Origin: Photobacterium profundum SS9
GTDB lineage: Bacteria > Pseudomonadota > Gammaproteobacteria > Enterobacterales > Vibrionaceae
DNA: 64,000 bases
Assembly (NCBI RefSeq): GCF_000196255.1
Contig: NC_006370.1
Span: 2,493,411 to 2,557,410, forward strand
Reading direction: 5' to 3'
This document shows, one piece after another, positions 46,209 through 61,905 of the stretch. Position 1 is the stretch's first letter; every line of letters begins with the position of its first letter. The notes below the pieces were generated by a model. That model saw only the letters and a program-made list of their open reading frames with translations. It was not told the DNA's origin and searched no databases. Both the position numbers and the translations under genes were made by a program.

Positions 46209-47441
46209 TTATAAAGCGGCTTGCATCTTAGGGTGTGCGGGTAAACGAATAGAAATCACCGTTGTTATGGCTAAGAAAACAAAAGAGACCCATAAACAAG
46301 CAGCAAGTCCGTACTCTTGATACATCCAACCCGATAAAATCGTACCAATTAAACGCCCCATCGCATTTGCCATGTAATAAAAGCCAACATCCAGCGATAC
46401 GCCGTCATCTTTGGCATAGCTAACAATCAAGTATGAATGCAGTGAAGAATTAACCGCAAATACTGCACCAAAAATTAATAGCCCAACGATAATAGTCAGC
46501 TCTGGCTGCCAATGAAACTGTACGCCAAGCGCAATGATTGCGGTAATAACAGCAAGCAAAGCAGCCCAGCCCAGCGCCGCTCGTCCATCTGGTACAACAC
46601 CTTTCGCTTTACCCGTTAACCGAGGAGCAAAACCTTGAACCACACCATAAGCAATAACCCAAGTAGCAAGAAAGCCACCAACCATTACATGGTCCCAGCC
46701 AAATACTTGCCCTAGGTAAATAGGCAATGCGACAACAAACCACACATCGCGAGCGCCAAACAAAAACATACGAGCAGCAGAAAGGATATTGATACTCTCA
46801 CTTTTTGAAAATATCTGACTAAATTTTATCTTGTTCTTGGCTTTCCCCAGGTCTTTCTCAAGCCAAAGCAAACTCATGCAAAATACAATCGCCAGCACAG
46901 CAGCCATTACCAACACAGAACCTTGAAAACCTAATGCCGCCAACAATAAACCGCCCAGAAAAAATCCGGTACCTTTAAGCGCATTTTTTGAGCCTGTCAG
47001 AATTGCAATCCACTTATACAATGCACCTTGTTGATCGCTAGGGACTAAGGTTTTAATGGCACTTTTCGCGCTCATTTTATTTAAATCTTTGGCTATGCCC
47101 GACATCGCTTGTGCCAACATCACCCAAGCAACGGTAAGGTAAGCTGTCGGAATGGCAAGCATGACCAAAGCAATAACCTGCATGGCAAGGCCAATATTCA
47201 TCGTGCGATTTAACCCGACTTTCGCACCAAACCAACCACCAATAAGGTTGGTCACTACACCAAAAAATTCATAGAACAAAAATAGTAATGCAATTTCGAG
47301 CGGTGAATAGCCTAGCTGATGAAAATGCAGTACCACCAGCATGCGTAATGCACCATCGGTGATAGTAAAATTCCAATAGTTAAACGTCACCAGCATGTAC
47401 TGCTTTACATCTTTCGACAGATTTGAAAACGCTGCAATCAT
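46209..47441 (-). CDS. arsJ: Organoarsenical efflux MFS transporter ArsJ
   Basis: Major facilitator protein of 410 aa with about 12 membrane segments. The opening (SKDVKQYMLVTFNYWNFTITDGALRMLVVLHFHQLGYS) is the hallmark of ArsJ, which exports 1-arseno-3-phosphoglycerate made by an arsenate-using GAPDH; the product hydrolyses outside to free arsenate. Its partner GAPDH gene lies immediately upstream (106 bases apart), the known gene pair. ATG 47441 is chosen by fit to family N-termini; an open frame extends to 47498. Confidence 0.92.
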   Translation of the reverse strand: MIAAFSNLSKDVKQYMLVTFNYWNFTITDGALRMLVVLHFHQLGYSPLEIALLFLFYEFFGVVTNLIGGWFGAKVGLNRTMNIGLAMQVIALVMLAIPTAYLTVAWVMLAQAMSGIAKDLNKMSAKSAIKTLVPSDQQGALYKWIAILTGSKNALKGTGFFLGGLLLAALGFQGSVLVMAAVLAIVFCMSLLWLEKDLGKAKNKIKFSQIFSKSESINILSAARMFLFGARDVWFVVALPIYLGQVFGWDHVMVGGFLATWVIAYGVVQGFAPRLTGKAKGVVPDGRAALGWAALLAVITAIIALGVQFHWQPELTIIVGLLIFGAVFAVNSSLHSYLIVSYAKDDGVSLDVGFYYMANAMGRLIGTILSGWMYQEYGLAACLWVSFVFLAITTVISIRLPAHPKMQAAL

Positions 47442-47547
47442 TCCGATATCTCTATCTAATGCTCCATATTTATCACTAATGAATAAATACAGAGTCATTT
47501 TCTTTGTAAGCGATCATCAACACAATCAATGACGATGCTAAATATGA

Positions 47548-48549
47548 CTAGGCTGAGCCAACTTGACGAATAAGCTCTGAAGTACGCGTCGCGTAACCCA
47601 TTTCATTGTCGTACCAAGCGTAAATTTTCACCATACGATGGTTAACAACCATAGTAGAGAGCGCATCAACAATCGTTGAGCGTTGATCACCTTTGTAATC
47701 AATAGAGACAAGTGGACGATCTTCAAAGCCCAGTACACCAATCATTTCAGTTTCTGATGCTTCTTTTAGCAGTGCGTTGATTTCTTCAGCTGTCGTATTT
47801 CGGCTAACATCAAAAATAATGTCTGTTAACGATGCGTTAGCTAAAGGTACACGCACTGCATGACCGTTAATTTTACCTTTTAATTCAGGGAAAATTTCAA
47901 CAATAGCAGTCGCTGAACCCGTTGTGGTTGGAATCAAACTTGAGCCACATGAACGTGCACGACGAAGGTCTTTATGCGGCGCATCAAGAATGGTTTGGGT
48001 GTTGGTTAAATTATGAATTGTCGTAAAAGAGGCTTGATCGATACCGATCTTCTCATGAATCACCTTAACAATCGGTGCAATACAGTTGGTAGTACATGAT
48101 GATGCTGTAACGATATGGTGCCTTTCTGGATCAAATAAATGATCATTCACACCCACCACCACATTGAGTACACCTTCTTCTTTTACGGGTGCAGATACAA
48201 CAACACGTTTTACCCCTTGGTCGAGGTACTTTTGCAGCAATGATGTTTTACGATGAACACCCGTAGCTTCAAGAACAACATCACAGCCCGACCAGTCGAC
48301 AGCATCAATATCACGCTCTTGGGTACATGTGATGCTTGCATCGCCAATCAACAGCTGATCACCTTCGACAGTAACGGCATGATTCCAACGACCTTGAATC
48401 GAATCGAACTCAAGTAAATGCCCCAGTGTTTTTGCATCACCAGCCACATCATTTATCTGAACAAATTCTAATTCTTCCCAATCAAAGGCTGCGCGAAGTG
48501 CTAAACGTCCGATACGACCAAAACCATTAATACCGACTTTAATTGTCAT
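47548..48549 (-). CDS. ArsJ-associated glyceraldehyde-3-phosphate dehydrogenase
   Basis: Type I GAPDH-like enzyme of 333 aa. NAD-binding IGVNGF-type start is [14 protein letters not shown], the active-site Cys lies in [12 protein letters not shown] near residue 153, the partner His in [10 protein letters not shown], and the phosphate-binding AATGSATA-type segment in [18 protein letters not shown]. In this operon type it phosphorylates, or here arsenylates, glyceraldehyde-3-phosphate to 1-arseno-3-phosphoglycerate for ArsJ. The start at 48549 has AAGGGT 7 bases upstream, preferred to the longer open frame. It is preceded by a strong terminator that separates it from the phosphatase gene. Confidence 0.92.
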
Positions 48550-48665
48550 GTTCTTACCCTTATTCATTCAATGTTAACGTAAACTGAAACGCTACATGCG
48601 CAAATTCATATATATGCTTTACCGTATATTAATGGACCTCAGACTGATTGACCAGTTTTTTCTGT

Positions 48666-48711
48666 AAAAAAGCCCCTTAGTGCATTGAAGTTCTTGCACT
48701 AAGGGGCTTAA
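48666..48711 (-). terminator. Terminator between the phosphatase and GAPDH genes
   Basis: AAGCCCCTTAGTGCA / TGCACTAAGGGGCTT perfect 15-bp stem; the minus-strand transcript ends in six U. The gapdh-arsJ pair thus probably has its own promoter or relies on readthrough. Confidence 0.9.
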
Positions 48712-48759
48712 TTTTTAATTATCTAAGAGCTGAAAAAATGCCCTAACTGTTAGAAACCG

Positions 48760-49272
48760 TTATTTAGCAAATTGTTGAATGTAATCAATGTGCGGTTGAC
48801 GAGTAAATGCACCCGGACGAAGTGCTTGAATTTGTGCAATCGTAGGTTCTAATTCAAAACCACGAGCTAACATTAGGCGTGCGGCAATCAATCCTGTTCG
48901 ACCAGACCCCCCCATGCAATGAATAGCCAATGACTCGCCATTATCTAACATTGCTTGTGCAGCAGTATTCGCTGCATCCCAATTAGCATCAAATGCTTCG
49001 CCTGGGGCACAATCATCTTCAATAGGAAGGTGAAACCACTTAAGCCCTAGCGTCTTACATTCTTGTGTTAACAGTTCAAGTCCACCATCAGGTAAGTCAC
49101 TTTCTTGCAATGCCGTTAAAACAGCGGTTACCCCTGCCTCTTTTAATTGTACTAATGAATCATGCAAATTTGCTTCTTTCTTACCTGGGCAAGGCATTAG
49201 CAGAAGTTGTGCGCCTTGGCTACCCAAAGTTGTATCTAGAGAAAGAGCCCAAAATGGATGTGTCTTTGACAT
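48760..49272 (-). CDS. Dual-specificity/CDKN3-like protein phosphatase
   Basis: A 170-aa cytoplasmic Cys-based phosphatase. The P-loop CMGGSGRTG (Cys-X5-Arg) lies in AIHCMGGSGRTGLIAARLML near residue 115, with the acid in the preceding LPIEDDCAPGEAF loop. It resembles the small dual-specificity/cyclin-dependent-kinase-inhibitor-3 group. It lies between the arsC-arsR fusion (66 bases upstream) and the gapdh-arsJ pair, so participation in arsenate handling, for example hydrolysis of arseno- or phospho-intermediates or alternative reduction, is an inference. No signal peptide. Confidence 0.82.
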   Translation of the reverse strand: MSKTHPFWALSLDTTLGSQGAQLLLMPCPGKKEANLHDSLVQLKEAGVTAVLTALQESDLPDGGLELLTQECKTLGLKWFHLPIEDDCAPGEAFDANWDAANTAAQAMLDNGESLAIHCMGGSGRTGLIAARLMLARGFELEPTIAQIQALRPGAFTRQPHIDYIQQFAK

Positions 49273-49338
49273 TGTGTGTACCTATAATTTTATTGTTTTG
49301 AAATGACTAAAACCTTGAGAGATCAGTGTCCATGAAAC

Positions 49339-50100
49339 TTATTTTTTCTTACTAAATCCTGGCTTTTTTCTGTCTTTAATCTGGCTGAGCTTTAATTTTT
49401 CATTATTGATTAGCCCAGGATTACCATTGCGTACCGTTGTTAATATGTGGTGGATCCAAACAGGTAAATTCTCAGGTAAACGATAGAAAACCCATAAGCC
49501 TTCACGTTGATCTTTTAAAATTCCTGCATCACGCAATAGAGCAAGATGACGAGAAACTTTTGGCTGACTAACAGACAAGGCTTTCGTTAAATCGCCCACA
49601 GAAAGGGCAAACTCATCTTCAATCAACATCAAGATACGAAGACGAAGCGGATCACCCATGATCTTAAAAAGCTCAACAGGGCCAACAGCATCACTTTGAT
49701 CTTCACCATTTAGCATTAAAAATAGCGCAATTCTTGCTTTAAGCCCTTCATAAGTATCGACGAAACCTTGATCTCCTTCTAGTGGTTTAGGATCTTTAAA
49801 ATCCCAATGGATCAACGCATCCGATTCAGGGAATAGCCCACATTCATTACTCGCCTTATCACATAGCGTTATAACCACATCAAAGTGTTGATCATGTAAT
49901 GCCTCTACTGAAATGCTTTGAAGATTGTCACTATTCACATCATATTTAGTTAAAACAGTATAAACACGCTCATCGACAGTTTCGGGGCTCATACCCGCAC
50001 TCATCACTTCATAACTATCATCAGCCATGTGTCGCATTAATGCCTCAGCCAGTTGAGAACGTGCCGAATTGCCAGTGCAGAGAAAAAGTATTTTTTTCAT
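49339..50100 (-). CDS. Fusion of thioredoxin-type arsenate reductase (ArsC) and ArsR repressor
   Basis: A 253-aa fusion. Residues 1-135 form a low-molecular-weight phosphatase fold with P-loop LCTGNSAR (Cys8) and cysteines Cys80 and Cys87, spaced exactly as the catalytic Cys triad of thioredoxin-coupled ArsC (10, 82, 89 in S. aureus numbering). Residues about 140-230 form an ArsR winged helix (VELFKIMGDPLRLRIL, SVSQPKVSRHLALLRDAG). The C-terminal tail is Lys-rich. The ArsR part has no cysteine at all; the usual ELCVC metal motif is replaced by FALSVGDL. It heads the arsenate cluster, and is probably autoregulated. Confidence 0.92.
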   Translation of the reverse strand: MKKILFLCTGNSARSQLAEALMRHMADDSYEVMSAGMSPETVDERVYTVLTKYDVNSDNLQSISVEALHDQHFDVVITLCDKASNECGLFPESDALIHWDFKDPKPLEGDQGFVDTYEGLKARIALFLMLNGEDQSDAVGPVELFKIMGDPLRLRILMLIEDEFALSVGDLTKALSVSQPKVSRHLALLRDAGILKDQREGLWVFYRLPENLPVWIHHILTTVRNGNPGLINNEKLKLSQIKDRKKPGFSKKK

Positions 50101-50259: not shown

Positions 50260-51369
50260 TCAACAACCAGAACGTAACGGGTCTTCACTTAGGTCAAAGG
50301 GTTGGATCGTATTATCTAGGATCCATTCTTTGATTTTCGACATGATAAGGGGATGAGAAAGCAAATCGAGATGGTTTATTCCCTCGCCTATCCACTTATG
50401 CTTAGGTGGGAAATCTAACCCAATATGTCCTGTTTCCGCATCACCTAATGCACTTGATACAGGTACAAGCCCATCGCCTAACATTTGACTTTTCTCATCG
50501 TAAAAATTATTCCCAAGGCAGCTCGCTATCGCATAACATGCGACCCCTTCTGGCAACGTAGGTCTCTTTTTAAGTACCTTTCTTGTTTCTTCATCTTGCT
50601 GCCAATCACTATGGCAAATAAAGCCATGGCTTAGGTCTCTTGTCCCGCTACTGCGGATTTCCGTTACTTTACTTAACACCTTTAAATACGGCGCATCTGC
50701 AACTCTTTCATCAACCCAGCTTGCTAGCTTAGCCAATGGAGCGCCATTATGTGGTGTACCTAATGTAATAAACGTGGTTAATTTATCTAACCAATCCACA
50801 TCATGCTGCTTGCCATAGTAACAAGCACTGCGAGTAACCAACCCGCCCATACTATGACCTACAATCACTAACTCAGTGACCGCACATGGCCAAGCGGCTA
50901 ATAACGCCTCAAGCTTTAAGGCAAACTCTTCGCCGTTAGCTGAAATATGCATGCCAGTGTTATAACGGAGGTAGATGGGGGTATAACCAAATGTCGCCAT
51001 GAAACGACCATGATCATGCTCTTTACGTAACCATTGCACATCATTCATGCACCAACCGTGTACGCAAAGTATAATTCTGTCTGTCGCTGCTGGCAGTTGA
51101 AGAGATAATAAAGCCGGATCGTCACTTAGCATTTGCTGCTGATCGCGAAACTGCATTTTTTGAGCAAAACGGCTGTCTCGCTGTTCAAGAGAATCACCTA
51201 CCATGCCATTTAAGGTAGCTATCACTGCATCACTCTGGACGGGTGGTAGACCCTGCTCGATAAATTCTGTGACTTTATCTTTAGCAACTCCGGTGTTCTC
51301 AGCCATTTTAGAAGAAATTTCATCTATGAATGCTTGGAATTTCTGACTCAGGTTATTCCTTGAAATCAT
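50260..51369 (-). CDS. Alpha/beta hydrolase, lipase-like
   Basis: A 369-aa serine hydrolase. The nucleophile elbow GHSMGG lies in IVGHSMGGLVTRSACYYG near residue 185. An oxyanion-type HGWCMND segment comes earlier (about residue 120), and the late His is probably in IGEGINHLDLLSHP near the C-terminus. An N-terminal helical part of about 70 residues resembles that of granule-bound esterases. No signal peptide is seen, so it may be intracellular. GAGG 10 bases before ATG 51369 decides the start; an upstream ATG at 51417 lacks one. Placement next to wax-ester genes suggests a role in neutral-lipid hydrolysis, an inference. Confidence 0.8.
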   Translation of the reverse strand: MISRNNLSQKFQAFIDEISSKMAENTGVAKDKVTEFIEQGLPPVQSDAVIATLNGMVGDSLEQRDSRFAQKMQFRDQQQMLSDDPALLSLQLPAATDRIILCVHGWCMNDVQWLRKEHDHGRFMATFGYTPIYLRYNTGMHISANGEEFALKLEALLAAWPCAVTELVIVGHSMGGLVTRSACYYGKQHDVDWLDKLTTFITLGTPHNGAPLAKLASWVDERVADAPYLKVLSKVTEIRSSGTRDLSHGFICHSDWQQDEETRKVLKKRPTLPEGVACYAIASCLGNNFYDEKSQMLGDGLVPVSSALGDAETGHIGLDFPPKHKWIGEGINHLDLLSHPLIMSKIKEWILDNTIQPFDLSEDPLRSGC

Positions 51370-51650
51370 ACTCACACCTCGATTTGTGGTTCTAAATGCC
51401 TTCATATAGTGATACATCTTTCCTAATATGTTAGCAGCCTATTAGCAAAGACTTATTATTCAATATCTATACAATCATACATTGTATTGGCAATACATAT
51501 TTATATAACACTTTAGTAGATTTAACTGAAATGAAAAAGCAGAAGGGGAAATAATAGAACACTGGGATTGAAATGAAAAAATATAACATTAAAAATCTGA
51601 CATAAGATTATAATAAATAAAATTAGAATAATCACCCTAACTTTTACTTT

Positions 51651-51690
51651 AAGCATAAAAAGGCTGAAATAGTTCAGCCTTTTTATGCTT
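51651..51690 (-). terminator. Terminator of the GMC oxidoreductase gene
   Basis: AAAAAGGCTGAA / TTCAGCCTTTTT perfect stem, extended to 18 bp by flanking AAGCAT / ATGCTT. Loop ATAG. Confidence 0.9.
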
Positions 51691-51703
51691 ACAAATAATA
51701 CCA

Positions 51704-53341
51704 TTAAGCTTTTGTTGTTTCTTTTACCTTTATTTCAGTATTCTTCTTTTTATAATCAGCCAAAATCATATCAGCTGCTTTTTCAGCAATCATAATGGTC
51801 GGCGCATTAGTATTACCGCCAATTAAAGTAGGCATGATTGATGCGTCTACAACACGTAAACCTTTAAGGCCAATAACCTTTAGTGCTGGGTCAACAACCG
51901 CTTGATCATCAACACCCATTTTACAAGTGCCAACTGGATGGTAAATCGACTCTGCTTTTCGGCGAATAAACGCTTCTAACTCTTCGTCTGTTTGAACCTC
52001 TTTCCCTGGAAATACTTCAACGCCTCGGTAATGTTCAAAAGCTGGTTGCTTCAAAATTTCACGAGACATCTTAATGCCTTTTATCAAGATTTTGATGTCT
52101 TCTTTGTTCTCTAAATAACGAGCATTAATCAATGGAGGAACAGCGGGATCTGCACTTCTTAATGTCAGTTCTCCTCGGCTTTTAGGGCGAAGATTACACG
52201 CATGTAATGAATAACCATGCCTAACTGTTTGCAATAGATTAAGACCATGATTATCAAGAAAACACGGTGAAAAGTGAAATTGGACATCAGGCACAGCAAG
52301 GGAGGGGTCACTCTTTACAAAGCCACCAGCCTCCGCAATGTTTGTGGTGAAGTTACCCTTTCGAAATAATAAAAAGTCAAAAATACCTTTAATCGAACGC
52401 ATTAAGGCAACAGGTGAAAAACCAACAGAGTGAAAAGTACGCTCACGGGTTACAGCCAGTACATCAAGATGATCTTGTAAATTTTTACCTACGCCATCAA
52501 GCTCACAAACTTGCTCTATACCATGCTGATTCAAAACATCTTTACTACCAACACCAGAAACTAATAAGAGCTGAGGACTATTGATTGCCCCCCCACTAAG
52601 AATGACTTCTTTCGTTGCGGTTATCGTATGTGTTTTACCCTTTTTAAGGTAATCGATACCGACTGCGACTTTACCATCAAAGTTAATTTTTGTCGTCAGT
52701 GCATCGGTAATAACGGTAAGGTTTTCTCTTTGTTCGACTGGCCGTAAATACCCAACTGCAGAGCTACAACGCTGACCATTTTTTTGCGTTACCTGATAAT
52801 AGCCGACACCTTCTTGATCTTCACCGTTAAAGTCATCCGTTAGCTTATGCCCAGCTTGCTGCGAAGCGTTAAGAAACGCTTTTGATAATGGATTTTTTGT
52901 CCGTAAATCAGCGACATTTAACGGACCACCCGCACCATGATAAGTACAAGCACCACGCTCTTGGTGTTGTGCCTTTTTAAAGTAAGGGAGCACATCACTA
53001 TAACCCCAGCCGTCATTACCTAATGTTACCCATTCATCGTAATCACACGCATGCCCACGGATGTAACACATCGCATTAGAAGCACTACTTCCTCCTAGTG
53101 TCTTACCACGAGGCCAAAATAACTTTCGTCCGCCAAGGTGTGATTCTTGCTCGGTATAATAACGCCAATTCATTTTTTTTGAATGCATCATTCCAATCAA
53201 ACCCAATGGAACATGCACCATTATACTTGAATCTTTTGGCCCTGCTTCTACCAAACAAACTTTTATTTTTTTATCGGCTGACAATCTATTAGCAAGTACA
53301 CACCCTGCAGATCCTGCACCTACAATTATAAAGTCATACAT
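51704..53341 (-). CDS. GMC-family flavin alcohol/choline dehydrogenase-like oxidoreductase
   Basis: FAD enzyme of 545 aa. The N-terminal [19 protein letters not shown] is the ADP-binding fold. GMC signatures 1 and 2 are [19 protein letters not shown] and [17 protein letters not shown]. The catalytic His region is [13 protein letters not shown], and the C-terminal [18 protein letters not shown] matches choline dehydrogenases and AlkJ-type alcohol dehydrogenases. Position back-to-back with a fatty acyl-CoA reductase favours long-chain alcohol oxidation over choline, since no bet genes are near. This is an inference from context. The C-terminus carries a Lys-rich tail. Confidence 0.88.
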
Positions 53342-53645
53342 AATACCCTCTCACATTCATTGTAATGATTATTGCCAGCCAAACTTATTAAAAGTTAATA
53401 TTGTTATTATAAATAAATGTTGTTTTTAATATAAAATCGCTCTTTAGTAACATTATAAATCATAGTGTAACTTCCAAAAAAACTTATTAAATTTTTCATT
53501 TAAGGTGAAATAAGGCCGTTAATTTAAATAAAAAGGTGATCTGTTTAATAGTTTCAAAGATTTAGTGACGACAAGAGCTCTGACCAGTGTATTTTGTATT
53601 TCTAAAAGGAATGTTATTAGATCAGTTGTATATTAAGGAGAGAAC
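53342..53645. other. Divergent promoter region between GMC oxidoreductase and fatty acyl-CoA reductase
   Basis: About 300 AT-rich bases that must hold both promoters. AAGGAGAG precedes ATG 53646. A FadR-like operator candidate is listed separately. Confidence 0.5.
53573..53589. promoter_or_regulatory. Possible FadR-like operator
   Basis: The 17-mer AAGAGCTCTGACCAGTG matches the enterobacterial FadR consensus in 13 positions by eye, including the strong right half TCTGACCAGT. It lies 57 bases before the fatty acyl-CoA reductase ATG. Acyl-CoA control of this gene would make sense, but is inferred. Confidence 0.35.
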
Positions 53646-55637
53646 ATGGCATATTTTTTGACTGGCGGAACAGGTTTTCTTGGCCGAAACCTCATCACCA
53701 GACTTTTAAAACGAGAAGGCACGATTTACGTCCTTTGTCATAATGAACAATCACAAGATATACTCGAAGCTCACATAGAGAAATGGTCTATTCCAGCGGG
53801 TCGTATCTTACCTATCACAGGGGATTTAACGCAGGCTGGTTTAGGTTTAGCCAAAGAAGATATTAAAAAATTATCTGGCTCTATTACGCATTTTTTCCAC
53901 CTTGCGGCTATTTATGATTTAAATGCCACAGCCGAAATACAAGAAGCCGTCAACATCGAAGGGACACAAAATGCTGTCGATGCGGCTGAAAATTTACAAG
54001 CAGGTTGCTTCCATCACATCAGCTCAATTGCAGCAGCTGGCTTGTACGAAGGGCACTTCCGCGAAGATATGTTCGATGAAGCAGAAAATCTAGATCACCC
54101 TTACTTCTCAACCAAACACTTATCAGAGAAAGTGGTTCGTGAAAAATGTAAAGTCCCTTTTCGTGTGTACCGTCCGGGTATGGTTGTGGGCGATTCAAAA
54201 ACGGGGATTGCAGATCGTGCCGATGGGCCGTACTACTTCTTCAAAATGATACAACGCATTCGTAATGTATTGCCTGCATGGGTACCAACTATTGGTTTAG
54301 AAGGCGGACGTCTTAATATCGTACCAGTTGATTACGTTGTTGATGCACTAGACTATATTGCGCATAAAGATGGCTTAGATAATCGTTGTTTTCACCTAAC
54401 AGATCCTAAACCTTACCGTTCAGGTGAAGTGCTTAATATTTTTGCTGAAGCGGGCCATGCGCCTCGTATGGCATTACGTTTAGATGCACGCTTATTTGGC
54501 TTTATTCCCAATCAAATGAAGAACGCTATTTTATCGTTACCAACGATTAAACAAATTAGCGACGTAACGATGAAAGATCTTGGTATTCCTTCATCAGCAT
54601 TACAATTCTTCACCTACCCTACAGAATTTGATTGCCGTGAAACGCAAAAAGCCCTAAAAGGCTCTGGCATTGAGTGCCCTCGCTTACCAAGCTATGCCCC
54701 TGCAATTTGGGATTATTGGGAGCGTCACCTTGACCCAGAGATCTCGGGTGATCGCAGCCTTAAAGGTCGCGTAGAAAATAAGATCATTTTGATCACTGGT
54801 GCAAGCTCAGGCATTGGGCAAGCAACAGCGTTCAAACTTGCCGAGAATGGCGCACAAATGATTTTGGTTGCTCGTGATGAAGAGAAACTAGCTAATACTA
54901 GAATGGAAGTAGAAGAACGTGGTGGTATCGCGCATACATACCAGTGCGATTTATCCAAAATAGAACAGGTAGATACGCTTGTTGAGAATATCTTGGCCGA
55001 TCATGGCCGTGTTGATATCTTAATCAATAACGCAGGTCGATCGATTCGTCGCTCTGTTGCGAATTCCGTTGATCGTTTTCATGACTTTGAACGCACAATG
55101 CAGCTTAACTACTTTGGCGCATTGAAACTAACCTTAGGCTTACTACCAAGTATGGAAGCACAAGGTGGCGGCCATGTTATTAATATTTCATCCATTGGCG
55201 TACTCACTAACGCCCCTCGTTTCTCTGCTTATGTTGCTTCAAAAGCAGCGATGGATGCATTTACACGCTGTGCAGCCTCTGAATATTCAGACATGAACAT
55301 TAACTTCACAACGATCAACATGCCTTTAGTGGCAACACCAATGATCGCGCCAACGAAGATCTACAAATCGGTACCAACATTATCGCCAGATCAAGCTGCT
55401 GATTTATTAGCAACGGCAATCATTGATAAGCCAAAGCGTATTGCGACTAAGTTAGGTATTTTCGGTTCCGTTCTTCATGCCCTTTTCCCTAAACTTGCTG
55501 AAATAATCATGAACAGTAGCTTCCGCATGTTCCCTGATTCGAAAGAAAGTGAGCAAAGTAAAGAGGATAAAACAGAAAAAGCATCATCAGCAGAGCTAAT
55601 GGCATTCTCTGCACTACTACGTGGTATTCACTTGTAG
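53646..55637 (+). CDS. Bifunctional fatty acyl-CoA reductase (acyl-CoA to fatty alcohol)
   Basis: A 663-aa NADPH-dependent enzyme. Its length and two-part layout match the Marinobacter alcohol-forming acyl-CoA reductase for wax-ester synthesis. N-terminal atypical extended SDR (about residues 1-370): FLTGGTGFLGRNL, catalytic YFSTK, and the VYRPGMVVGDS and GGRLNIVPVDYV blocks. C-terminal classical SDR (about 375-640): LITGASSGIGQA, NNAG, and the active-site SAYVASKAA. The tail AELMAFSALLRGIHL is also conserved. The two domains reduce acyl-CoA to aldehyde and aldehyde to alcohol. It is first of a two-gene unit with acbP, and divergent from the GMC dehydrogenase. Confidence 0.92.
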   Translation: MAYFLTGGTGFLGRNLITRLLKREGTIYVLCHNEQSQDILEAHIEKWSIPAGRILPITGDLTQAGLGLAKEDIKKLSGSITHFFHLAAIYDLNATAEIQEAVNIEGTQNAVDAAENLQAGCFHHISSIAAAGLYEGHFREDMFDEAENLDHPYFSTKHLSEKVVREKCKVPFRVYRPGMVVGDSKTGIADRADGPYYFFKMIQRIRNVLPAWVPTIGLEGGRLNIVPVDYVVDALDYIAHKDGLDNRCFHLTDPKPYRSGEVLNIFAEAGHAPRMALRLDARLFGFIPNQMKNAILSLPTIKQISDVTMKDLGIPSSALQFFTYPTEFDCRETQKALKGSGIECPRLPSYAPAIWDYWERHLDPEISGDRSLKGRVENKIILITGASSGIGQATAFKLAENGAQMILVARDEEKLANTRMEVEERGGIAHTYQCDLSKIEQVDTLVENILADHGRVDILINNAGRSIRRSVANSVDRFHDFERTMQLNYFGALKLTLGLLPSMEAQGGGHVINISSIGVLTNAPRFSAYVASKAAMDAFTRCAASEYSDMNINFTTINMPLVATPMIAPTKIYKSVPTLSPDQAADLLATAIIDKPKRIATKLGIFGSVLHALFPKLAEIIMNSSFRMFPDSKESEQSKEDKTEKASSAELMAFSALLRGIHL

Positions 55638-55706
55638 TTTAAAAACCCACCTTCATCGGTGGCTAGGTATTAACAACTTTATAATTTTAATTAAGGATAG
55701 AAAATC

Positions 55707-55973
55707 ATGGCAGATTTAAAAGCAAGCTTTGAACAAGCACAGTTAGACGTTAAGAAACTGACTCAGCGTCCAACAAACGATGAATTGCTTACAATGTATT
55801 CTTTGTTCAAGCAAGCCACTGATGGTGACGTACACGGCAAGCGTCCTGGTATGTTTGACTTTAAAGGGGCGGCAAAATACGAAGCATGGGAAAAGCAAAA
55901 AGGAATGGATGCTGAAACTGCGATGCAGAAGTATGTTGACCAAGTAGAAAAAATGGCAGCAACTTACGCATAA
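55707..55973 (+). CDS. Acyl-CoA-binding protein
   Basis: An 88-aa four-helix ACBP. Conserved positions are visible: LLTMYSLFKQATDGDVHG (acyl-CoA-binding Tyr/Lys), the RPGMFDFKGAAKYEAWEKQKG block with its core Trp, and the final helix. ACBPs are common in eukaryotes but uncommon in bacteria. It binds C14-C20 acyl-CoA with high affinity. AAGGATAG lies 9 bases before the ATG, 69 bases after the reductase, so both are probably co-transcribed. Location between the reductase and wax synthase suggests delivery of acyl-CoA to both. Confidence 0.92.
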   Translation: MADLKASFEQAQLDVKKLTQRPTNDELLTMYSLFKQATDGDVHGKRPGMFDFKGAAKYEAWEKQKGMDAETAMQKYVDQVEKMAATYA

Positions 55974-55995
55974 TCCATACGTAGCAAAATACTAT

Positions 55996-56023
55996 AAGAC
56001 CGCACTTAATGCGGTCTTTTTTT
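55996..56023 (+). terminator. Terminator after the acyl-CoA-binding protein
   Basis: AAGACCGCA / TGCGGTCTT perfect 9-bp stem, 5-base loop and a run of T. Confidence 0.9.
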
Positions 56024-56031
56024 ATGCGCAG

Positions 56032-56065
56032 AAAAAACCGCAACCTATAAGCTATAGATTGCGGT
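56032..56065 (-). terminator. Terminator of the wax synthase gene
   Basis: CCGCAA / TTGCGG plus inner CTATA / TATAG stem; six U on the minus strand. Confidence 0.8.
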
Positions 56066-56095
56066 AACAAGGGAAAGAATGTCTTTCTTATTATG

Positions 56096-57775
56096 TTATG
56101 AAGCTGATGAACCCGTTTTGGGGATGATATCGAGCACGACGGGTTGATTCATTAACTCTTCGTTTATCGGCTTAACCGCAGGATCAATCTCGATAGTTTT
56201 AGAAAGCATCGCAGTTAACTGTGATAATTGCTTTTCCAGATGATCTACTCGCTGCTGTTTCTCTATATACAAACGTTCAAATTCAGCATCATCTGGCGTA
56301 AGGGCTTCTCGTGCTGCAAGCACCGCCATTTCAACCGCCACTGTCTCGCTATCATGGCTTTCCATCTGCTCTGATACTGCTGACACTGCTGTATCCATGA
56401 TATCTTGCTCTAACTCATTTAAGGCCTCTTCCATATACCCTGCAATCACCTCAAACCCAGGCAAAGACTGGCTACATGCAACCAATGAGTAGTACATCTG
56501 CCCGGCATTACTAAAGAATGTAATATTCAATGTTTGCCCTGGCATCAGTAGCGATACTGGATATTGCTCTTTCACCTTTGCACCCATGAAATACAAGGTG
56601 TCTTTTACACCCGGTATATTAGAGATGAGCAAGTTACTTACAGGCGGAATAAACCCATTTAAGCCAAATTTACCGCTAATTAAAGACGCACCATTAACAA
56701 GCAGAGAATAATTAATATAAGCATCAGGTGAAATATTTAAGGCTTCATTTTTTAGATCAACCGTTGCCTGTTGAATCGCTTCTAATCGCTCTAATGACGT
56801 TAAGTGCGATCGTCCCAGCTCAACATGCCCGACAGACATCTTATTACCTTTACTTTCCAACTCTCCTTTATTACGAAGACTCATTGGCATCATGGCAACT
56901 AACGGTTTTCTTAAAGGTAACGAGCGATCATTTAAGTAACGATTCAAAGCAATATCGCTTACCGTAAAGAGTACATCATTCATTGATGAACCCGTTATGC
57001 GGCTAAGCTGATTCAATCTACCCATTGAAAACTGACCAAGACTCACCGCTCGGCTACGCTTAGGGCTCAAGTTAAAAGGCGTTTTTGGTGCTGTAAACGG
57101 CACCTTCAAATCACAATCAGCCAGCTTTACCGCTTTTAATGCAAGCTTACTACCCAGTCGGAACATTGATGGAATAAGCGATATTTGCTTTGATGCTTGC
57201 GTGGCTGTTTTTATTACCATGTTGGTAAGGCGTGTTTCTGCACGGCGCTCTGATGCCGTTTTACGTAAATCACACTGCCAAATAGGCTGGCTAAATGAGT
57301 CTTCAGGGTTTGTGGCACAACTTCGGGTAAATAAACTACTGGCACGAACACCATCCGCCATTGAATGGTGGACTTTAAATATAATCGCCACACGATTATT
57401 TTCAAGACCACCAATCACCCATACTTCCCACATTGGTCGACTTCGATCCAATACTTGACCATGTAAACGACCAACAACTTGTTGTAACTGTTGGTCATTT
57501 CCAGGTGATGGAAGCATAGTGATACGTAAATGATCTTCTAAATTCACTTTCGGAAGTGTTTGCCAGCTTGGTTTGCCCGTAAACGACCACTGAAGCTTCC
57601 AATTAAAAGGTGCTGTCACGTCAGTTTGCTGTAAAAATTCACCATAGAGATCTTGCGCATACGTAGCCGCATGCTCTTTAGGCGGTTCTAATATAACTAA
57701 ACCAGTTACATGCATTGGTGTTTTGTCAGATTCAAAAATAATGAAACTTAAGTCGAGAAGAGACAAACTAGGCAT
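56096..57775 (-). CDS. Wax ester synthase/acyl-CoA:diacylglycerol acyltransferase
   Basis: A 559-aa acyltransferase that joins acyl-CoA to a fatty alcohol (wax ester) or diacylglycerol. The condensing motif HHSMADG is at residues 136-142. The MPSLSLLDLSFIIFESDKTPMHVTGL start and the C-terminal VSNLLISNIPGVKDTLYFMGAKV block are typical of WS/DGAT. Known enzymes have about 455-475 aa. Here about 100 extra C-terminal residues follow, with acidic stretches and a heptad-like VDHLEKQLSQLTAMLSK. It is transcribed with the downstream... phasin partner on the same strand (phasin gene upstream, 11-base spacing). Convergent with acbP. Confidence 0.92.
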   Translation of the reverse strand: MPSLSLLDLSFIIFESDKTPMHVTGLVILEPPKEHAATYAQDLYGEFLQQTDVTAPFNWKLQWSFTGKPSWQTLPKVNLEDHLRITMLPSPGNDQQLQQVVGRLHGQVLDRSRPMWEVWVIGGLENNRVAIIFKVHHSMADGVRASSLFTRSCATNPEDSFSQPIWQCDLRKTASERRAETRLTNMVIKTATQASKQISLIPSMFRLGSKLALKAVKLADCDLKVPFTAPKTPFNLSPKRSRAVSLGQFSMGRLNQLSRITGSSMNDVLFTVSDIALNRYLNDRSLPLRKPLVAMMPMSLRNKGELESKGNKMSVGHVELGRSHLTSLERLEAIQQATVDLKNEALNISPDAYINYSLLVNGASLISGKFGLNGFIPPVSNLLISNIPGVKDTLYFMGAKVKEQYPVSLLMPGQTLNITFFSNAGQMYYSLVACSQSLPGFEVIAGYMEEALNELEQDIMDTAVSAVSEQMESHDSETVAVEMAVLAAREALTPDDAEFERLYIEKQQRVDHLEKQLSQLTAMLSKTIEIDPAVKPINEELMNQPVVLDIIPKTGSSAS

Positions 57776-57786
57776 AGATGTTCCTC

Positions 57787-58143
57787 TTATTTTTGCAAAA
57801 GCTTATCAACAGCTGCCGTTAACGTATCAATACGCTCTTCAAGGCCTGATAATTTAGTGCGGTCGATACCGCTTGTACGGCGAATAACATAATTTACCTG
57901 CTTTTCGACGTTACCTAAAACGACTTTTTTGGTGGAATCAATACGTTGCTTACTCTCGGTTTCAACATATTCACCTTTATCAACTAAAGCGCGGAACTGG
58001 CTACTTAACAAACCTTGAGTTTGCTGTTTTTGTTCCATACCTTTGCTATAAGCACCTAGACCCGCTAAATAAATAGTGCGAGCAGTCTCTTCACCAGCAG
58101 AAGTAACAGATTTAACACTTCCGATTATATTTTTGAGCATCAT
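57787..58143 (-). CDS. Phasin-like granule-associated protein
   Basis: A 118-aa protein of the phasin/PhaI type: SAGEETARTIYLAGLGAYSKGMEQ is the recognisable core, with a long amphipathic helix and a C-terminal leucine heptad stretch (LEERIDTLTAAVDKLLQK). Phasins coat polyhydroxyalkanoate granules; here neighbouring genes make wax esters or triacylglycerol instead, so the granule may be a lipid droplet. It lies 11 bases before the wax synthase on the same strand, indicating co-transcription. No PHA synthase is in this window. Confidence 0.8.
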   Translation of the reverse strand: MMLKNIIGSVKSVTSAGEETARTIYLAGLGAYSKGMEQKQQTQGLLSSQFRALVDKGEYVETESKQRIDSTKKVVLGNVEKQVNYVIRRTSGIDRTKLSGLEERIDTLTAAVDKLLQK

Positions 58144-58553
58144 AATTAATTCCCTTACTTATTATTAGCCTGCTTCTTATTACAAAAAACAAATAAAAGA
58201 AACAATGGCATCTATCATTAAAATAAGGTTAGCAATTAAAATTAGATCATTCTTTCTAATTTTTAAATTAGAACACCGCTTAGATCACAAAAACAAAACA
58301 ACAATAATTTTATTTAAAATCAAAAGCTTAAGCCAAACAATAGCCCTTCTCTTTTATTTTAGAATACTCAACCTATTCTCTTGACTTATTTCACCCAACT
58401 ATCTGTGATTGGGTTCAACATATTGAAATAAAATTCAATTTTCAATAGACAACTAGAGTCATAACTCTATCCTTAAATAGTATAAAGATAATAATAAAAC
58501 AACTTAGCAAACACTCGCCACCAATAGTAAATATAGTGAAAAAGGAATTTGTC
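58144..58553. other. Divergent region between phasin and acetyl-CoA hydrolase genes
   Basis: About 410 AT-rich bases with no supported gene or obvious dyad. It must contain the two divergent promoters. AAGGA 7 bases before ATG 58554 is the next ribosome-binding site. Confidence 0.4.
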
Positions 58554-60824
58554 ATGTCTGTACTTGAATTTATAGATACACCTATTTGCCCTTCTGCTCT
58601 TTCTCCTAGTCATTCCAATGACCAAACATTGCATGCAGAAAACGAAACAAAATTGGCTGCGCAAACATTGGCGACACCAGATGAACTTGTTGATCAAATA
58701 ATTGCGCAAGTTGGAAAGAAAATCGTTATCGGCGTACCTCTTGCTATCGGAAAACCCATTGCTTTTATCAATGCGCTTTATCAACGAGCGAAAGCCGATC
58801 CTTCTATTTCACTTCGTATAGAAACGGGTATTACACTCGAAAAACCTATTGGTAAAAGTACGTTAGAGAAAAACTTTTTAGGGCCATTTGTCGAACGCGA
58901 ATTTGCGAATGTACCCGATATTGATTATATCTGTGGTCTTCGTAAAGGCGATATGCCTAGCAATATCTGCGTGAATGAATTTTTCTTCAAAGCGGGCAGC
59001 TTTTTAAATAGTACACAGCAATTAAATTACACCAGCACAAACTATACGCATGCCGTTCGAGATCTATTGGATAAAGGGGTGAATGTTGTCGCCCAAATCG
59101 TTGCCAAACGTATCATTAATGGCGTAACAACGTACAGCTTGTGCAGTAACTCTGATTTAGCGTTAGATTTCATTCCTGAAATGGATCGATTGAAAGCAGA
59201 AGGCGTTCCTATGGCCATTGTTGGTGAAGTTAACAACAACATGCCATTCATGCGTAACCATGCAGAAGTTGCAGACTGTGAATTCGATTTCATTCTTGAT
59301 GGCAACCTGAACGAAAAACATGAAGATTACGCACTATTTGCAGCACCAAATGCCAGTATTTCCCAAGAAGATCATATGATTGGGCTATATTCGAGTACAC
59401 TGATTAAAGATGGCGGCACATTACAAGTTGGTATTGGTTCACTCAGTAGCGCATTAACGTACAGTACTATGCTGCGTCATCAGAATAACTCTGTTTACCA
59501 ACAAGTACTTCACGATCTACAAGTTGCAGAAAAATTCCCTCTTAGTTGTGTTATTGGTGAAACGGGCACATTCGAAGAAGGCTTGTACGGCTGTAGTGAG
59601 CTGATGGTCGATGGCTTCATGCACTTATTTAAAGCCGGCATTCTCAAGCGTGAAGTATTCGAAGATTTAACAATACAAACACTACTGAATGAAAATAAAA
59701 TCACGCCGAAAGTCACTATTTCTACACTACTCACTTTGCTTGAGCATAACGCAATATCTTCAGTATTAAACAGTGATGATGTGGATTATTTAAAACGTAT
59801 TGGTGTATTTAAGTCGTCGGTTCACTACCACAATGGGTTGCTTAATATTACTGATAGCAGCTATTTAGGTAATTTGAAAAATGAAGAAGCCTTACAATGG
59901 ATAACCAAACATTGCTTGAATTCAGCATTATGCGGCGGCGTAGTCATGCACGGTGCATTCTTCATCGGGCCTAAAGATTTTTACGAAGCACTTAATACAA
60001 TGACAGATGCCGAGCATGATCAATTCTGTATGACGAGTGTGAACTACGTTAATGAGCTTTATGATCATTTCCTTGGAAGCCAGCAACTCAAGCAAGCACA
60101 ACGTAAACATGCACGTTTCATTAACTCAGCCATGATGGTGACGTTAAATGGTTCTGTTATTTCAGATGCCTTAGAAAATGGACAGGTCGTTAGTGGTGTA
60201 GGCGGTCAATATAACTTTGTCGCACAAGCCCATCAATTACCCGGTGCACGTTCTATTCTAAAATTGCGCAGCTGTTGTGTACGTGGCGGTAAACTTCAAT
60301 CAAACATTTTATTCAATTACGGACACACGACAATACCTCGCCACCTTCGCGATACGGTTATTACTGAATATGGCATTGCAGATCTTCGCAGTAAGTCAGA
60401 TCACGTTGTATATACAGAACTGATTAAAATCGCAGATTCACGCTTCCAACAAGAATTACTAGAAAAAGCCAAAGCGGCTGGAAAAGTAGCAAAAGATTAC
60501 CAAATTCCTGCTGAATTCTGTAATAACACCCCAGAAGCGATTGCACAGGTATATGACAAATATACAGCACAAGATTTCTTTGGCCCCTTCCCCTTCGGTT
60601 GTAGCTTTACTGAAGAAGAGCTCAAATTAGGTAAAGCATTAAAGTCACTAAAAAATAAAACAGCAACAAGAAAAGGCAAAGCACAGTGTTTATGGCAAGC
60701 ACTATCGGCTCCAAAGCCAACAGCCGCTATTGAACCACTATTAAAACGTATTGGTATGAATGAGCCAAATAACTTACAAGACCGTATAACAAAGCGCCTA
60801 TTAACAGCAGAATTAAGTAAATAA
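58554..60824 (+). CDS. Acetyl-CoA hydrolase/CoA-transferase family protein
   Basis: A 756-aa cytoplasmic enzyme of the acetyl-CoA hydrolase/4-hydroxybutyrate CoA-transferase family. The CoA-binding GIGSLSSALTYS and the later VSGVGGQYNFVAQAHQLPGARSI are family landmarks. A glutamate expected to form the CoA thioester lies in the ITEYGIADLRSK region near residue 605. It is longer than typical 430-510-aa members because of an N-terminal extension of about 60 residues and inserts; similar long versions occur in Vibrio relatives. The upstream GTG frame from 58536 lacks a ribosome-binding site. Possible role: acyl-CoA balance next to lipid storage genes. Confidence 0.85.
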   Translation: MSVLEFIDTPICPSALSPSHSNDQTLHAENETKLAAQTLATPDELVDQIIAQVGKKIVIGVPLAIGKPIAFINALYQRAKADPSISLRIETGITLEKPIGKSTLEKNFLGPFVEREFANVPDIDYICGLRKGDMPSNICVNEFFFKAGSFLNSTQQLNYTSTNYTHAVRDLLDKGVNVVAQIVAKRIINGVTTYSLCSNSDLALDFIPEMDRLKAEGVPMAIVGEVNNNMPFMRNHAEVADCEFDFILDGNLNEKHEDYALFAAPNASISQEDHMIGLYSSTLIKDGGTLQVGIGSLSSALTYSTMLRHQNNSVYQQVLHDLQVAEKFPLSCVIGETGTFEEGLYGCSELMVDGFMHLFKAGILKREVFEDLTIQTLLNENKITPKVTISTLLTLLEHNAISSVLNSDDVDYLKRIGVFKSSVHYHNGLLNITDSSYLGNLKNEEALQWITKHCLNSALCGGVVMHGAFFIGPKDFYEALNTMTDAEHDQFCMTSVNYVNELYDHFLGSQQLKQAQRKHARFINSAMMVTLNGSVISDALENGQVVSGVGGQYNFVAQAHQLPGARSILKLRSCCVRGGKLQSNILFNYGHTTIPRHLRDTVITEYGIADLRSKSDHVVYTELIKIADSRFQQELLEKAKAAGKVAKDYQIPAEFCNNTPEAIAQVYDKYTAQDFFGPFPFGCSFTEEELKLGKALKSLKNKTATRKGKAQCLWQALSAPKPTAAIEPLLKRIGMNEPNNLQDRITKRLLTAELSK

Positions 60825-61686: not shown

Positions 61687-61760
61687 TGGAGGCGCGTCCC
61701 GGAGTCGAACCGAGGTACACGGATTTGCAATCCGCTGCATAGCCACTCTGCCAACGCGCC
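61687..61760 (-). tRNA. tRNA-Cys(GCA)
   Basis: Minus-strand GGCGCGTTGG start, T-arm CGGTTCGACTCCG and encoded CCA. The anticodon loop reads TTGCAAA, giving GCA. 74 nt. Confidence 0.95.
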
Positions 61761-61818
61761 ATATTTATCGCTAAGTCATAACTTAGCTTTATCGCTTATG
61801 GTAACGATAAATAATAGA

Positions 61819-61905
61819 TGGTGCCCCGGGCCGGACTTGAACCGGCACAGCGCGAACGCCGAGGGATTTTAAATCCCTTGTGTCTACCAATTCCACCACC
61901 AGGGC
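61819..61905 (-). tRNA. tRNA-Leu(UAA)
   Basis: Minus-strand GCCCTGGTGG start, long variable arm, T-arm CCGGTTCAAGTCCGG and encoded CCA. The anticodon loop reads TTTAAAA, giving UAA. 87 nt. It lies 58 bases upstream of tRNA-Cys on the same strand, so a single transcript is likely. Confidence 0.95.

Follow-up and report, generated by a model that had tools for sequence, protein, structure and literature searches.

What is a compact block of seven lipid genes for in a member of the Vibrionaceae, and what decides when it is used? The block lies at positions 50260-60824 of a 64,000-nucleotide stretch of Photobacterium profundum SS9 (the window; G000:C2:2493411-2557410, in a genome of 6,403,280 bases on three contigs). 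A first-pass annotation had placed there a hydrolase, a GMC alcohol dehydrogenase, an acyl-CoA reductase, an acyl-CoA-binding protein (ACBP), a wax ester synthase/diacylglycerol acyltransferase (WS/DGAT), a phasin and a CoA-transferase. All seven are found as uninterrupted open reading frames, in an order kept in 16/16 named relatives apart from loss of the reductase gene in six. We think it probable that the locus is a module for storing wax esters, which draws on long-chain acyl-CoA and answers to the acyl-CoA sensor FadR, and wax esters appear to be its likeliest product. The argument is built from what can be read in the sequences: gene identities and order, joint presence and absence, a conserved operator, a FadR protein in the same genome and the fold of the CoA-transferase.

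The two central enzymes both exceed the cut-offs of curated models, which bears out their earlier identification. The reductase, here called FAR-A (53646-55637, plus strand, 663 aa), is a two-domain fatty acyl-CoA reductase that matches NF005539/PRK07201 over its full length at 992.6 bits (cut-off 549). Among the 120 matches listed, it is 61-63% identical to named Marinobacter proteins of 661 aa, which we take to be the size of the Marinobacter enzyme Maqu_2507. The WS/DGAT (56096-57775, minus strand) scores 358.4 bits with TIGR02946 (cut-off 309.95) and carries the HHSMADG motif reported by the first-pass annotation; its catalytic part, including the HHxxxDG region, can be aligned with two enzymes of solved structure, 6chj and 7nxg. 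Compared with these, it has about 100 additional C-terminal residues (56096-56404), helix-like at the end, and by eye this helix-like stretch resembles the C-terminus of the phasin and might anchor the enzyme to it. The ACBP gene (55707-55973, plus strand; PF00887, 102.7 bits) comes second, after FAR-A, and a terminator-like hairpin found by consensus scan (55996-56018, without strand) lies where the ACBP and WS/DGAT genes converge, so that two convergent units would be kept apart. The phasin gene (57787-58143, minus strand; PF05597, 38.6 bits against a cut-off of 28.8; NF047773) is separated from WS/DGAT by 11 bases and is likely its operon partner.

Control is suggested by one site. We scored the 330 bases 5' of each gene against the 16 positions of the Escherichia coli FadR consensus; the E. 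coli fadBA region, as a control, scores 13/16. The sole site in the window to reach at least 12 is AAGAGCTCTGACCAGTG (53573-53589, plus strand), a FadR-type operator with 12/16 matches, 73 bases 5' of the reductase start. A site with 11-13 of 16 matches lies at -72 to -76 in 16/16 FAR-A copies, and GACCAGTGTA is invariant across these 16 upstream regions. The operator also outlasts the reductase gene: six named loci without FAR-A keep it 142-176 bases 5' of ACBP, with 10-14 matches, and altogether it is retained in 6/7 of the FAR-A-less loci read, the exception being L085 (G047), with a best score of 9. Shuffled upstream regions give a mean best score of 9.2 (sd 0.8). The regions before the CoA-transferase, phasin, WS/DGAT and hydrolase genes average 9.2-9.6, at the shuffled level, and FadR-type sites there were rejected on that ground. 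The number of sites was likewise set aside as evidence, since eight first-order random windows yielded 0-4 sites scoring at least 12; the site in our window therefore counts solely through its position and conservation.

The presumed regulator is at hand. FadR (TIGR02812) is encoded in the same genome at G000:C2:3021920-3022756, scoring 382.6 bits against a cut-off of 249.2, and 73 of its first 80 residues are identical to 5dv5, the FadR of Vibrio alginolyticus. FadR is above the cut-off in 13/13 Vibrionaceae genomes given and in 0/12 reductase-bearing genomes of other families, and four reductase loci of FadR-less members of the class (L148, L153, L159, L160) reach just 9-10 in the operator scan. 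Upstream of the FadR-type site is a second conserved block (53535-53550), GGTGATCT followed by TAATA, in which nearly all columns are invariant among the 16 aligned FAR-A promoters; its left half resembles a CRP half-site, and no partner half was seen. A sigma-70 scan returned 32 sites where 32.2 were expected, so no promoter was assigned.

The same kind of operator accompanies a second reductase lineage. By family assignment the genome appears to encode two acyl-CoA reductases, FAR-A of the present locus and, at a distance, FAR-B, which together with DUF2505 and TetR regulator genes lies at L079:9401-12681 (G000:C2 near 2154407); these two genes follow FAR-B in 4/4 stretches read (L079, L084, L093, L094). 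In a midpoint-rooted tree of 19 of 120 listed relatives, chosen from the best matches of FAR-A and leaving out the class loci L148, L159 and L160, FAR-A and FAR-B form separate groups, and FAR-B falls with the enzymes of a second Vibrionaceae genus, g12. CATCNGACCAGT is common to 11/11 aligned FAR-B upstream regions (11 of the 18 copies found). In 3/3 intact g12 clusters, sites precede the reductase (12-14 matches), ACBP (12-13) and phasin (11-12), and the g12 operator core, TGGTCGTACCAG, is identical to that of E. coli fadBA. The site thus occurs in two reductase lineages. One g12 cluster (L081) comprises GMC, ACBP, glutathione peroxidase, reductase, DUF2505, TetR, hydrolase, WS/DGAT and two phasins, and some 2.4 kb separate reductase and WS/DGAT in 3/3 intact clusters. 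A fourth g12 stretch, L083 (G186), comes from an assembly with 6% contamination and shows reductase and WS/DGAT in pieces only. In SS9 itself, two tandem phasin genes lie about 8 kb from FAR-B.

We propose a model where ACBP would deliver acyl-CoA, FAR-A would reduce it to fatty alcohol and WS/DGAT would join this alcohol to a second acyl-CoA, while the phasin, probably co-transcribed with WS/DGAT, would coat the growing droplet. FadR, predicted to bind the operator at the FAR-A promoter and assumed to act there as a repressor, would be released once long-chain acyl-CoA abounds, which would make wax synthesis an overflow valve. On the return path, the PGAP1-like alpha/beta hydrolase (50260-51417, minus strand; PF07819, 39.1 bits; present in 16/16 named Photobacterium loci), a candidate ester hydrolase, would cleave the ester. 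The GMC flavoprotein alcohol dehydrogenase/oxidase (51704-53341, minus strand; PF00732/PF05199; PRK02106, 680.7 bits), a candidate for long-chain alcohol oxidation, would oxidise the alcohol, and the CoA-transferase would return the freed acid to CoA. The reductase and WS/DGAT families support the acyl-CoA-to-wax-ester pathway, with binding protein and phasin, that the first-pass annotation had drawn. The coating role and the three mobilising roles of hydrolase, GMC protein and CoA-transferase, coating and mobilisation also having been claimed there, are suggested by gene family. For the GMC protein it is the family that stands; the BetA equivalog model is not reached (570.2 against 732.1 bits), and a choline dehydrogenase identity is not supported.

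The CoA-transferase (58536-60824, plus strand), divergent from the phasin gene and by alignment likelier to start at the ATG at 58554, has a class I CoA-transferase fold in 762 aa. Its earlier naming holds in that it is of a large class I type; the Pfam match itself is limited to residues 478-645 (PF13336). E355 is invariant in all 46 aligned sequences (45 of 120 listed relatives, from 915 found, plus the window protein), and the motif to which it belongs is aligned with SEMISDG in 3gk7 over a weak stretch of 3.0 bits; the residue is a candidate for the catalytic glutamate of class I CoA-transferases. Marinobacter carries relatives at 51-54% identity, among the matches listed. The protein thus looks like a new, uncharacterised large kind of CoA-transferase with relatives in a known wax ester maker. 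Among 361 other Gammaproteobacteria (own genome and G428, below cut-off, excluded) there are 12 carriers of the reductase and 18 of WS/DGAT, with both in 9 genomes, and 16 carriers of the CoA-transferase, which is shared with the reductase in 8 genomes. It is tempting to speculate that in Vibrionaceae FadR stands over wax synthesis in two reductase lineages, FAR-A and FAR-B with g12, so that the overflow of acyl-CoA into wax would be tied to beta-oxidation and to membrane synthesis, and that the CoA-transferase is a third core enzyme in Photobacterium, Marinobacter and their kin, re-activating fatty acids by transfer and not by ATP-dependent ligation; we regard this wider claim as possible but doubtful.

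How steady is the block itself? In the window, four of the genes are encoded on the minus strand (hydrolase, GMC, and phasin followed by WS/DGAT) and three on the plus strand (FAR-A, ACBP and the CoA-transferase). The closest named relatives are P. indicum, P. frigidiphilum and P. profundum ATCC BAA-1252 (94% over WS/DGAT). In 16/16 named loci, whose WS/DGAT proteins are 73-94% identical, the order is CoA-transferase, phasin, WS/DGAT, ACBP, GMC, hydrolase and an ArsC-ArsR fusion. FAR-A is present in 10/16, and these ten hold all seven genes; the six without it are P. sanctipauli, P. ganghwense, P. pectinilyticum, P. aquae, P. lutimaris and P. rosenbergii. Five of these six (G051, G065, G042, G061, G070) carry FAR-B elsewhere. 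The sixth, P. sanctipauli (G072), has no reductase genome-wide at E 1e-60 and retains WS/DGAT, CoA-transferase, GMC and ACBP. Because the same order is kept throughout the named relatives, FAR-A loss apart, the clustering is not due to chance. Wide separation of the genes in close relatives was named by the first-pass annotation as speaking against its reading, and in three of 25 carriers it is what we find: the block is split, with FAR-A about 656 kb (G056), 808 kb (G074) and 799 kb (G087) from WS/DGAT. No phasin gene lies beside WS/DGAT in L029, L032, L040, L041 and L044. In some species WS/DGAT and ACBP are separated by a large gene for a lipoprotein-like product of 547-930 aa (L007:11916-14696, L010:11900-14692, L006:11896-13539); two of the three copies have Asp-rich repeats, the L007 copy matches no Pfam family, and the gene is absent from the window.

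Across the Vibrionaceae (329 genomes, 52 of Photobacterium and 277 others, with G225, below cut-off, dropped from the count), WS/DGAT is above the cut-off in 29: 25/52 Photobacterium and 4/277 others, all four of the latter from g12. The reductase, at E 1e-60 or better, is found in 28/329, of which 24 are Photobacterium and the other four the g12 genomes that have WS/DGAT. In a survey of co-occurrence, put forward as a check in the first-pass annotation, the reductase is within Photobacterium present in 23/25 genomes with WS/DGAT and 1/27 without. Other genes follow suit, the CoA-transferase in 24/25 and 0/27, a GMC ortholog (at least 70%) in 24/25, with pieces of an 80% relative in 1/27, and PF05597 phasins, counted genome-wide, in 24/25 and 1/27. 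A single genome without WS/DGAT accounts for the reductase, GMC pieces and phasin, and this is G079, an 85% complete assembly. The P. sanctipauli locus (L006) holds a 50% phasin relative that the PF05597 count misses. At genus level, the joint presence of the wax genes is suggestive. On a gyrB tree of the 52 genomes, WS/DGAT presence needs five changes, three of them forced by well-supported branches; this pattern, from one gene and with no outgroup, is consistent with early presence and several losses, and a recent horizontal arrival in this genome is not favoured. The locus had also been called unusual for vibrios, which is so outside Photobacterium and does not apply within it, given the counts above. 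The suggested tie to deep-sea life did not survive, and deep-sea specialisation was rejected, as 13/16 named carriers fall outside the 94% P. profundum cluster.

Several observations weigh against our interpretation. The joint presence reflects two independent changes on well-supported branches, or three in all, in a pair test that left out G079, G084, G050 and G073 as incomplete or fragmented; with so few, Fisher values are inflated and joint presence is not a test. Two carriers of WS/DGAT, G072 and G073, lack a reductase at E 1e-60, and G047 lacks the CoA-transferase, its locus having neither FAR-A nor operator. As for the operator, the window site is one-sided, with a poor match in its left half; a FadR-type site is lacking from the window's WS/DGAT-phasin unit; and isolated sites occur where the model would not put them, in the phasin/CoA-transferase gap of L004 (12) and before the hydrolase in L012 (12) and L016 (13). 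Scores overlap as well, FAR-B sites at 10-12 and the reductase loci of FadR-less genomes at 9-10, so that it is the shared core, and not the score, that separates the two in these alignments. With regard to the CoA-transferase, 8/16 carriers in the class lack WS/DGAT, WS/DGAT adjoins it in 0/9 class loci read (7/9 of them from WS/DGAT-bearing genomes), and it is missing from all four g12 stretches, a count that covers the loci only, the rest of those genomes not having been searched.

The surroundings of the block are of other kinds. On the hydrolase side, arsenate-type genes (46209-50100) adjoin it, comprising a transporter, labelled ArsJ from gene position alone, an ArsJ-associated GAPDH, a dual-specificity phosphatase and the ArsC-ArsR fusion, in which a low-molecular-weight phosphatase/ArsC domain is joined to an ArsR domain and which lies beyond the hydrolase in 16/16 named loci. 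Directly past the CoA-transferase are tRNA-Cys and tRNA-Leu genes (61687-61905), a possible insertion point.

Could the same genes serve another end? The chief role of reductase and WS/DGAT might be that of a sink, protecting membranes and acyl pools from excess or unusual chains or from surplus reducing power, with storage secondary. The FadR-type operator, which links the locus to the acyl-CoA level, would suit this too, but a phasin and an apparent return path in the block fit re-use, and most of the named carriers do not belong to the P. profundum cluster; we consider such a primary role unlikely. Alternatively, the main product could be triacylglycerol, WS/DGAT taking diacylglycerol from phospholipid metabolism while the reductase meets some other need. 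Enzymes of the WS/DGAT family are often bifunctional, and P. sanctipauli keeps WS/DGAT and three of its companions with no reductase detected. Yet 23/25 genomes with WS/DGAT hold a reductase, the two genes lie close together in every intact g12 cluster, and the block includes neither a phosphatidate phosphatase nor a glycerol-phosphate acyltransferase; a Kennedy-type triacylglycerol cluster was rejected because no such phosphatase or acyltransferases stand beside WS/DGAT among the block genes. Triacylglycerol as the main product is quite improbable in our judgement.

It is very unlikely that the phasin and CoA-transferase serve polyhydroxyalkanoate (PHA) storage and merely neighbour the lipid genes. 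PF05597 is named for PHA granules, and the genome does have two phaC genes, so that the contrast drawn earlier, with storage of this kind in place of PHA, falls away; both phaC genes, however, are on contig C3 whereas all four PF05597 phasins are on C2, and both PF05597 phasins and the CoA-transferase track WS/DGAT through the genus. With no PHA synthase in it, the locus was rejected as one for PHA storage. Least credible of all is a chance gathering of unrelated genes at an insertion hot spot, for which the adjacent tRNA and arsenic genes and the split block in 3/25 carriers might be cited: the order is kept in every named locus, FAR-A loss and some extra genes apart, and genomes without WS/DGAT, G079 excepted, lack the whole set.

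If the wax ester storage module under FadR control is real, about half of Photobacterium species, among them the model piezophile P. profundum SS9, would make a wax storage lipid, and the choice between oxidising fatty acids, using them for membrane and storing them as wax would fall to FadR as well. A function would be found for the CoA-transferase family, and work on this gene could extend to Marinobacter, where wax ester genetics exist. Wax in pressure adaptation would become addressable in a genetically tractable deep-sea bacterium; the question can be asked here because Marinobacter wax esters change under pressure, according to the parts of that report available to us (PMC10384521). In the available text of two SS9 transcriptome and genetics papers (PMC3505737, PMC8174602) we found no statement on these genes. 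The literature searched, with subscription papers outside its reach and many sources available in part, contained no description of wax esters from Photobacterium or any other Vibrionaceae and none of FadR control of wax ester genes, FadR papers (PMC4537474, PMC3460868, PMC5489566, PMC5733061) included. The FadR-type operator, the second reductase FAR-B and the CoA-transferase relatives in Marinobacter go beyond the first-pass annotation.

How, then, does the locus compare with systems already described? As far as the accessible text of PMC5733061 goes, Vibrio FadR has a contracted regulon, with a palindrome before seven Vibrio genes, and acts on fad, fab and plsB genes. Here the regulator is of the same type and length class, and the operator is of the kind found at the fad genes; that text mentions no wax ester reductase. 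The CoA-transferase has the class I fold in common with the 4-hydroxybutyrate CoA-transferase family (3gk7, 2oas). Its SE..xDG stretch falls, weakly (3.0 bits), on residues 237-254 of 3gk7, and a GVGGQ stretch is shared, but its 762 residues, against about 440, include an inserted segment of about 100 and, at the C-terminus, an extension that is helical. Sediment metagenome clusters containing ws/dgat (PMC10351704, seen in part) likewise have ACBP and a Maqu_2507-like reductase (58.8-61.9%) nearby, a further such reductase (49.5%) lying in a Kennedy-type scaffold and a phasin gene on one scaffold. Those scaffolds were assigned to Betaproteobacteria and Gammaproteobacteria, the text naming neither Photobacterium nor Vibrio, and, unlike here, neither FadR control nor a CoA-transferase is described in the portion available.

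The nearest parallel is the Marinobacter wax ester pathway of the Maqu_2507 type. Its reductase is of the same family and length as FAR-A, at the 61-63% identity given above for the matches listed, the WS/DGAT here is of the solved 6chj type, and a CoA-transferase relative is found there too (51-54%, again among the matches listed). In Marinobacter atlanticus, deletion of both reductases nearly abolishes wax esters and single deletions do not, in the available text of PMC6308636, a result that bears on the FAR-A/FAR-B pair. What differs is the setting: in P. profundum the genes lie within 10.5 kb, in the company of those for ACBP, phasin and CoA-transferase, and the reductase gene has a FadR-type operator in front of it, whereas none of the 12 reductase-bearing genomes of other families has FadR above the cut-off. 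The pathway is thus of a known kind, and the probable tie to FadR, the gathering of the genes and the link to a CoA-transferase look new.

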